A stretch of DNA of 33,980 nt, taken from Bacteroidota bacterium (lineage in GTDB: Bacteria; Bacteroidota; Bacteroidia; Chitinophagales; Chitinophagaceae). Below the pieces are notes generated by a model, which was given only the letters and a program-made list of their open reading frames with translations, made no database searches and had not been told where the DNA came from. The stretch lies in assembly GCA_025356235.1 (NCBI GenBank), contig JANXUL010000010.1:1-33980 (forward strand), given 5' to 3'. Positions 16,839 to 26,230 of this stretch are shown in pieces. The position numbers and the translations under genes were made by a program. The stretch's first letter is position 1; each line of letters begins with the position of its first letter.

Positions 16839-16938
16839 CAGGATACTGGGGTCTGGATGCTGGATGGAAGGATGAAGGAACCCCGACTATATCTAGTATT
16901 GAGCATCCAACATCCAGAAACCAGAATCCAGTATCTTG
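16839..16938. repeat. Long imperfect inverted repeat of the 'CCAGAATCCAGTATC' type
   Basis: The left arm has CAGGATACTGG (16839-16849) followed by TCTGGATGCTGGATG (to about 16866). The right arm has CATCCAACATCCAGA (from 16904) and then CCAGTATCTTG (16928-16938). The arms pair over about 26 positions with two G-T wobbles and one bulge of roughly 9 bases, around a central loop of about 37 bases. Internally it stutters (CATCCA, CATCCAG, CCAGAA, CCAG). It lies between two divergent genes. No terminal target duplication is evident. Confidence 0.7.
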
Positions 16939-16956
16939 TAACCAGAACCTTTTTTC

Positions 16957-25509: not shown

Positions 25510-25600
25510 GGTGAGTGGTGAACGGTGAGTATTGTTGAAAAGGAGCATTTACCTACTACTCACCACTGACAACTCACCATTCACAATCAACATACAATAA
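25510..25600. repeat. Intergenic inverted repeat of the 'GTGAGTGGTGAA / TTCACCATTCAC' type
   Basis: The left part reads GTGAGTGGTGAACGGTGAG. The right part contains CTACTCACCACTGACAACTC and then ACCATTCAC. The two parts are imperfect reverse complements built from stuttering CTCACCA/TTCAC units. It lies directly downstream of mtgA and before the convergent NR-kinase-like gene, which itself carries a similar element inside its coding sequence (25949-26023). Confidence 0.65.
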
Positions 25601-25639: not shown

Positions 25640-26230
25640 TTAGTGAAGGAATTCTTCAACAGCCGCGATCGCGGTTAGCAGGCGGTCTTCATAATTGCCA
25701 CTGATCTCTACCCAGGGAACCTGCTGATTAATCAACAGGTCTTTGTAAATATGGTACAATTCATTGCGTGGGCCCTCATGGGGGTATTCGCGTAGATCAT
25801 CTTTTACCCAGGGCAGGTCGGTGCCGCAAAGGAGGTATAGATTATATTTTCTTTCTACAATCTGGTCAAGGATAAACTGGTGGCATTTTCCAAACACATA
25901 TTCGCACCAGACTTTCATTACGTACATATCAGTATCTACGAATAAGAAAGGCGAGTGGTGTGTGGCGAGCAGTGAGTGCGGATTAACCCATCTCCGCTCA
26001 TTCACCATCGACCATTGACTATTCACTAATGATGCGTATTCATCTTCCATAGCTAACTGGCCACGTGCAATGGTGAGCAGGTTATTAAAATCGTAGGAAG
26101 TTCCATTTGTAACCAGGTATTCCCTTGCAAATTCCGGGCACCACTGCATTCCATAATGCTGGGCCAGTAACTCGCACAAAGTGCTTTTACCCGTTGATTC
26201 CGGGCCGAGGATAACAATCTTTTGAATCAT
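25640..26230 (-). CDS. NadR-like ATP-binding protein, probable nicotinamide riboside kinase, with an inserted repeat
   Basis: A 196-residue P-loop protein like the kinase domain of NadR (AAA_28 type). Walker A is GPESTGKST (residues 9-17). CPEFAREYL, the FVDTDMYVMKVWCEYVFGK Walker-B region, and DLPWVKDDLREYPHEG fit nicotinamide riboside or related kinases that trap the substrate by phosphorylation. Residues about 69-94 are extra: they read NSQWSMVNERRWVNPHS, then LLATHHSP, and are encoded by an in-frame copy of an intergenic repeat. Without them the protein would be about 170 residues, which fits the family better. The gene lies downstream of pnuC on the same strand, 200 bases away, which supports a role in NAD salvage. 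Start ATG at 26230. Confidence 0.88.
   Translation of the reverse strand: MIQKIVILGPESTGKSTLCELLAQHYGMQWCPEFAREYLVTNGTSYDFNNLLTIARGQLAMEDEYASLVNSQWSMVNERRWVNPHSLLATHHSPFLFVDTDMYVMKVWCEYVFGKCHQFILDQIVERKYNLYLLCGTDLPWVKDDLREYPHEGPRNELYHIYKDLLINQQVPWVEISGNYEDRLLTAIAAVEEFLH
25949..26023. repeat. Palindromic repeat inside the NR-kinase-like coding sequence
   Basis: The plus strand reads GCGAGTGGTGTGTGGCGAGC, then AGTGAGTGCGGATTAACCCA, and the other arm contains CTCATTCACCATCGACCATT, then GACTATTCAC. A GCGGA/TCCGC core (25978-25982 and 25993-25997) closes a 10-base loop. Its length, 75 bases, is a multiple of 3, and it is open in the gene's frame. It has the same sequence style as the intergenic element at 25510-25600. 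Confidence 0.7.

Follow-up and report, generated by a model that had tools for sequence, protein, structure and literature searches.

The question raised by this locus is how repeat DNA of an intergenic type came to lie, in frame, within the gene of a conserved enzyme. The window analyzed here is the whole of a stretch of 33,980 nucleotides (contig JANXUL010000010.1 of assembly GCA_025356235.1) from a member of the Chitinophagaceae, and the gene in question (25640..26230, minus strand) encodes a protein of 196 amino acids. Based on Pfam and NCBIfam matches, this protein is a P-loop kinase of the NadR ribosylnicotinamide-kinase (RN-kinase, vitamin-B3 kinase) kind. A profile search matched it to Pfam AAA_28 with an E value of 6e-29, which backs the initial annotation of the gene as NR-kinase-like; the match to the NCBIfam nadR domain scores under that model's own cut-off. 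Both the sequence and the fold are those of a NadR kinase domain, and the presence of an adjoining gene for an NMN transporter is consistent with this identity.

Residues 69-94 of the kinase are encoded by an in-frame, apparently repeat-derived insert with the appearance of a decayed heptamer hairpin (25950..26026, minus strand), recognized by its lag-7 identity. The insert spans 77 nt and, on the coding strand, consists of a 5' arm of four heptamers of the GT(C/G)(A/G)AT(A/G) kind (25999..26026, minus strand), a 20-nt spacer, and a 3' arm, CACTCACTGCTCGCCACACACCACTCGCC (25950..25978, minus strand). Its best run of 21 comparisons gives a lag-7 identity of 0.76; elsewhere in the gene, stretches of the same length average 0.40 and reach 0.62 at most, none equaling the insert. 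The initial annotation had described 75 bases (25949-26023), a multiple of 3 as claimed, with an open frame, and had placed this intergenic-type repeat DNA, in frame, after a helix and ahead of the Walker-B strand FLFVDTD. The placement stands, no stops occur within residues 69-94, and the repeat-like stretch itself measures 77 nt. The description of the insert as palindromic was not borne out: as a DNA strand it forms no hairpin beyond those of shuffled sequences (z -0.76; 45 of 200 shuffles as good), and even the best of 17 offsets brings only 15 of 28 arm positions into agreement. The rhythm is kept and the palindrome is lost in the window insert. Given its open frame and the peptide constraint described below, the insert is presumably translated.

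The unit of the insert is frequent in its own genome. The pattern AYTSACN taken three times, with at most two mismatches, gave 253 + 242 matches, compared with 25 + 35 for the reversed pattern, so that the absence of further copies, which would have spoken against an origin from a repeat, is not what we find. A DNA search with the whole element returned only the element itself and two weak matches (19 and 26 bases, E value of 4.3). The expectation of many genomic copies of the 75-base element therefore holds for the unit and not for the element, and the near-empty result indicates that the copies have the unit in common, not the full sequence. One member of the family lies close by: an intergenic heptamer hairpin between convergent genes (25511..25584, no strand assigned), in which the unit style claimed to be shared with the insert can be seen. 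The stretch 25510-25592 folds better than shuffled sequences (z -2.36). A second, different heptamer element, hairpin-like and composed of CTGGATG / CATCCAG units, is found at 16850..16945 (no strand assigned; lag-7 match at 16901, limits set by eye). It occupies the gap between divergent genes that by eye are inositol-monophosphatase-like and glycosyltransferase-like.

A census of the same genome covered 34 stretches and the window, 395,881 bases in all; 32 of the 34 had been picked for pattern matches, so the density of arrays is not a genome average. It contained 42 arrays of period 7, of which 36 are outside open reading frames (ORFs) and 6 inside, together with four of period 8 and a single array each of periods 6 and 9 (periods 5-10 tested). 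Hairpins running from GTGAGT-like to ACTCAC-like ends numbered 39, with lengths of 44-111 bp (median, 75). Among 37 hairpins outside ORF interiors, stops close all six frames in 31. Hairpins are weakly enriched between convergent genes, which flank 10 of the 33 intergenic hairpins that have both neighbors and make up 53 of 323 gene pairs. The two arms of a hairpin match each other better than arms of different hairpins do (0.874 versus 0.835 in 27 hairpins; 0 of 10,000 permutations as high), with the own arm falling within the top 5% of all arms for only 6 of the 27. The spacers are unrelated (mean score of 5.12 versus 5.07 when shuffled, maximum of 12 versus 10; 496 pairs), and direct repeats of 3 to 4 bases abut only 2 of the 39 hairpins. 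Together, these features suggest that the hairpins have grown in place from a shared pool of units and have not been copied whole.

The abundance of the unit differs among genomes. The window's own genome ranks third of 40 for its unit, and among 16 genomes of the same genus, chosen to include long and short kinase loops, the AYTSAC unit had 326 matches in G000, 321 in G066 and 847 in G070, and none in the 13 others chosen, including G034, G067 and G059. The latter three keep kinase loops of 32-33 aa despite having no unit matches. The range from 0 to 847 between these two sets of three genomes has the look of a loss or gain of whatever maintains the AYTSAC family.

These data bear on the possibility of local slippage only, in which replication slippage and palindrome correction would generate each array where it stands, no sequence moving from one site to another. 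Slippage agrees with the dominance of period 7 (in the stretches of 16 genomes, 62 arrays have this period and 13 have any of the others from 4 to 12) and with the better average match of an arm to its own partner, the unrelated spacers and the scarcity of abutting direct repeats, and a link between 7-nt units and polymerase slippage is proposed in PMC4679880. A single unit present at hundreds of sites per genome, with an abundance that varies widely from genome to genome, is not expected from independent local slippage, and we regard slippage as the sole explanation as unlikely.

The same loop of the kinase was compared in other Chitinophagaceae, using the best 80 of at least 318 loci (designated L), ranked by similarity to the insert-bearing query. 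Among these and the window, lag 7 falls in the top 2% of the gene for 38 of 50 loops of at least 25 aa and for 2 of 31 shorter loops. In the 50 long loops, lag 8 does so in 12, lag 6 in 2 and lag 9 in none, and the inverted-repeat score in 16. The units themselves differ. The loop DNA contains CGATTCC arms in L048, CTTCCGGA-like octamers in L065 and L066, ACCGTTA units in L068 and L209 (the loop of L209 being longer by 14 aa, that is, by 6 heptamers), ACTAAC in L036, AGTCAGG in L039, GAAAATR in L045, and a mosaic in L023. Four orthologue loops chosen for their clear arms fold better than shuffled sequences (L048, z -2.9; L066, z -6.1; L068, z -3.9; L038, z -3.4). When 24 loops with clear units were clustered by single linkage at one difference, six clusters were obtained: a chain of 17, which includes the window, L036, L038 and L068, and five further clusters consisting of L045, L064, L065, L066, and L039 with L048 and L069. 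In one clade (L034, L036, L043, L048 and L068; support of 0.995), each loop is 32 aa long. L048 and L068 harbor clear arrays of different units, L036 carries ACTAAC-like units, as do L034 and L043 by eye, and in a larger tree the short-loop kinases L218 and L219 fall inside this group. We read the differing units and the short loops within one clade as replacement or repeated entry.

Strong arrays (at least 17 of 21 identities, a threshold that the window's own loop, with 16 of 21, just misses) numbered 26 in 19 of these best 80 kinases: 22 of period 7 in 17 kinases and four of period 8 in two others. The interiors of neighboring ORFs at the same best 80 of at least 318 loci (334.5 kb) had no array of period 7 or period 8, and the remaining 103.5 kb had nine of period 7 and three of period 8. 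Ranking the loci by their likeness to a query with the insert inflates the kinase count, although many carriers have other units. Judged from these sequences, the kinase loop is evidently a hotspot for repeat DNA of different families.

Whole-genome counts covered seven chosen families with patterns of our own design; those for the six loops that follow were made in the window's genome and 24 others. The unit of L066 had 61 matches in its carrier genome (by position, the insert accounts for about 5), the highest of the 25, with 35 in the next genome. That of L048 also ranked first, with 16 matches (3 from the insert) and 13 in the next. The L038 family ranked second with 92, the top genome having 113, and its pattern overlaps AYTSAC. 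The L068 family ranked fourth with 45 (at least 2 from the insert), its clade having 55, 55, 48 and 44 and other genomes at most 9; the L036 family likewise ranked fourth with 245, its clade having 452, 270, 251 and 75 and other genomes at most 20. For these two families, all higher-ranked genomes belong to the clade of the carrier. The L039 family fits badly, with only 6 matches in its carrier (3 from the insert) against 47, 24 and 23 elsewhere. In five of the six loops tested, then, the unit is a common one in the genome or clade that carries it, L039 being the exception. Comparisons of own versus other genomes were also made on smaller samples. In the 4.5-kb flanks, 4 of 38 long loops were in the top 5% (1.9 expected), a small sample that gives no support; in sampled stretches (17-80 kb per genome) the own genome ranked 1-3 for 5 of 16 genomes and lower for 3, and no own match was found for 8 of the 16, the window's genome included, which is a mixed outcome. 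We judged these samples too small and have placed weight on the whole-genome counts.

With regard to age, the 19 closest loci (L004-L022, 68-83% identity, among the best 80 of at least 318) all have a loop of 27-32 aa, and the pattern SQWSxV..WVN..L occurs in many of these loops. A loop common to all 19 indicates that the insert was inherited, and a recent, private insertion is ruled out. Of 61 genomes drawn separately from the genus, among them the window's own, 56 have a kinase match; one match is truncated and one masked, leaving 54 readable loops. Nine of these are at least 27 aa long and 45 are 9-23 aa, and every listed match is free of internal stops. In the 11 most distant kinases (L222-L232) the loop is 8-10 aa. 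The short loops in most of the genus draw and in the most distant kinases indicate that the segment is still an insertion. The initial annotation had named a similar insert in most orthologues as a result that would refute it; the closest relatives do show such an insert, and most of the genus draw and the most distant kinases do not. Many loops are exactly 32 aa, but a special constraint on length was discarded, as 17 picked fresh loops span 27-45 aa (mean, 32.9; standard deviation, 4.4).

On a tree of one short protein, loop length required 16 Fitch changes, 11 of them gains and 5 losses, whereas 500 label shuffles required 45.3 on average. Excluded from the tree were L134 (which is the window gene itself), the truncated L188, the masked L189, L233 (the same gene as L219), L204-L208 (five repeats of genes already included) and identical proteins; loop limits vary by about 1 residue with the script used. 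Within the genus, the lag-7 signal of the loop drops from 0.81 and 0.76 to 0.33 (L135-L139) with its length unchanged. L138 has a decayed loop, yet its genome is G070, the one with 847 unit matches. In a further kinase (L017:3001-3594), the 5' arm is a perfect GTCCATG array (lag-7 identity of 1.00) and the 3' arm is apparently decayed, as if homogenization had persisted in one arm alone.

The insert peptide is, on comparison of related genes, constrained. Among nine genes picked from the window's same-length clade (36 pairs), pN is 0.27 and pS 0.74 in the loop, compared with 0.125 and 0.72 in the rest of the gene, pS being near saturation. In loops picked from this clade, W73 and P94 are present in 16 of 16 and N83 in 15 of 16. 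AlphaFold2, run on 36 sequences, places strands at residues 74-77, 80-83 and 88-90 of the window insert with pLDDT of about 90; the three blocks of the L066 insert have pLDDT of 70, 56 and 83 and are mostly coil, the two models having been built from different alignments, one of them rich in loop homologues. The window insert thus looks folded and conserved, and is modeled as a beta element. The surface loop expected by the initial annotation is correct in position, between the helix and FLFVDTD, and is at odds with the strands that the model predicts there.

This conservation and predicted order, including the invariant W73, would also be found if the 32-aa segment were an ordinary variable loop native to a kinase subfamily, its likeness to a repeat being due to chance or composition, and the loops of L008, L016 and L032, which have no lag-7 signal, are in accord with this. 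A native loop does not account for an excess at lag 7 in 38 of 50 long loops that is absent at lags 6 and 9, for the clear hairpins of other units at the same place in other lineages, for units that are common in the carrier genome or clade in five of six cases, or for the graded decay of the signal within the genus. We consider a native origin decidedly improbable.

We favor the explanation, which we consider likely, that the insert is what remains of a non-autonomous heptamer hairpin that entered an ancestral RN-kinase gene in frame and was later domesticated. Insertion would have occurred in the ancestor of a Sediminibacterium-like group, at the turn between the helix and the Walker-B strand. 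The comparison of arms and spacers suggests that dispersal may proceed by the copying of units between hairpins, and that local growth into inverted arrays may occur by snap-back or template-switch synthesis. Because 7 equals 1 modulo 3, an array of at least three heptamers is read in all three phases; in genes, therefore, only units that are stop-free in every phase of the coding strand, in arrays whose total length is divisible by 3, survive. Whatever the frame, TGAATGG runs into a stop by the third unit, and TCAATGG gives none. On their coding strands, the inserts of the window kinase, gcvP and the pyruvate dehydrogenase gene described below have 5' arms of GTCAAT-/GTCAGT-like units and 3' arms of ACTCACC-like units (the last complemented by eye). 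The filter follows from the genetic code, and we infer its action on these inserts. A tolerant loop would take in arrays repeatedly, and an array could then be replaced, expanded, decayed or domesticated, the palindrome being lost and the peptide becoming a conserved beta element.

A broader reading is also possible, and we offer it tentatively: that a mutational process in the Chitinophagaceae makes and swaps period-7 hairpins and in this way adds to proteins, with the RN-kinase turn as a recurrent acceptor in which the array is replaced by the current family, and with floppy inserts becoming folded beta elements. If true, living species would display successive stages in the making of new protein structure from intergenic repeats. 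Compared among species, the loop of this one enzyme includes the short ancestral turn, fresh hairpin inserts of several families, and an old copy with a fading repeat signature and a constrained peptide that is modeled as folded. Arguments on the passage from non-coding DNA to protein structure usually have a single end point, whereas this is a series open to experiment.

Several known systems resemble the one described here. Rickettsia palindromic elements (RPE) are short palindromic repeats that lie in frame in the genes of functional proteins. The window insert is like them in occurring in frame, with the frame open, in the ORF of a conserved protein. As to a palindrome, none is significant in the window copy, and the loops of L048, L066, L068 and L038 have significant ones. 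The system differs from RPE in the 7- or 8-base tandem units arranged in inverted arms, in an abundance that depends on the genome, in the repeated filling of one loop by different families, and in its hosts, which are Bacteroidota and apparently free-living. Miniature inverted-repeat transposable elements (MITEs) are dispersed, non-autonomous repeats of small size that can contribute sequence to ORFs. They are recognized by full-length copies and target-site duplications; here the spacers are unrelated, no full-length sequence is shared and abutting direct repeats were found at 2 of 39 hairpins, and MITE-like copying was rejected. Cyanobacterial STRR are heptanucleotide direct repeats. Tandem 7-base units in intergenic regions, the hallmark of heptanucleotide repeats, are present here. 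TAACTGA heptanucleotide repeats are described in PMC4679880 as intergenic and as occurring in Beggiatoaceae, Cyanobacteria and some Bacteroidetes. Those repeats are mostly direct and their forward translation contains stops, whereas those analyzed here form inverted hairpins, with stop-free versions in frame.

The in-frame location of RPE in ORFs is also stated in PMC3733652, where REPs are described as intergenic hairpins of which a minority lie inside genes of several species, and different REPs are reported at about one recB site in two Xanthomonas species (PMC3733652). The recB case is a precedent for a shared acceptor site. REPs are defined by a palindrome of 20-40 bp with a GTAG or CGTC tag at one end. 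The hairpins listed here (57-111 bp) end mostly in GTGAGT-/ACTCAC-like sequences and have period-7 arms and unrelated spacers. Transposition by RAYT or another Y1 tyrosine transposase, as in REP elements, is suggested by the hairpin form, intergenic abundance and in-gene copies, which resemble REPs as described in PMC3733652, and is very improbable, as the window's own genome (a draft, 98% complete) has no Y1_Tnp match over the Pfam cut-off, its sole match under the cut-off contains a stop, no GTAG or CGTC tag is seen by eye at the ends of the listed elements, and the copies share no full sequence. Mobilization by RAYT is therefore unsupported in this genome, and the kinase case raises the question of how heptamer hairpins spread with no recognized transposase. 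The present case joins two known kinds, in-frame palindromic repeats and heptamer direct repeats, as heptamer hairpins that lie in frame and recur at one loop. Among the open-access papers listed by title and start of abstract, none reported such repeats in this group, which speaks only weakly for their absence from the literature.

In-frame arrays also occur in other genes. We examined 60 stretches of 15 other genomes (905,248 bases), set by contig number and offset and not by matches, except in G005, G011 and G015; these consist of few contigs, and their contig numbers were taken from earlier match lists. In these stretches, 8 of 56 period-7 arrays are inside ORFs, and all other periods from 5 to 11 together gave 10 arrays. 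As 86% of the sequence is ORF and few arrays lie inside, arrays are strongly depleted in genes, though present. The eight are in genes for icmF (two), a holB-like protein, susC/ragA, trpG, ileS, birA and an HMG-CoA-lyase-like protein. In the window's own genome, arrays inside ORFs were found in gcvP and between the domains of a fused pyruvate dehydrogenase E1 gene; valS has two, each with its own unit, and a deoxynucleoside-kinase ORF has one close to its start, where the start codon may be misplaced. These cases suggest that annotators of Chitinophagaceae proteins should be prepared for repeat-derived segments in ValRS, IleRS, GcvP and similar enzymes.

Individual cases are as follows. In valS (L200:1974-4466), the two in-frame heptamer arrays have the units NGTHHSPLTTHDF and DQFKIQNTKYKIADI. 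In the fused pyruvate dehydrogenase E1 alpha-beta gene (L192:13925-16000), an in-frame heptamer hairpin occupies the linker between the domains. The hairpin SIVNSESSVNHTHHSPLTT lies in frame in the glycine dehydrogenase gene gcvP (L118:2576-5494), whose product, judged by eye, includes another repeat-like peptide, QTPNPKLQTNLQ. In the icmF gene of another genome (L243:933-4295), an in-frame array encodes EVNGQWSMVNE, which closely resembles the window kinase's own peptide; the same gene has a further array, GGQLTVDSSQLTV.
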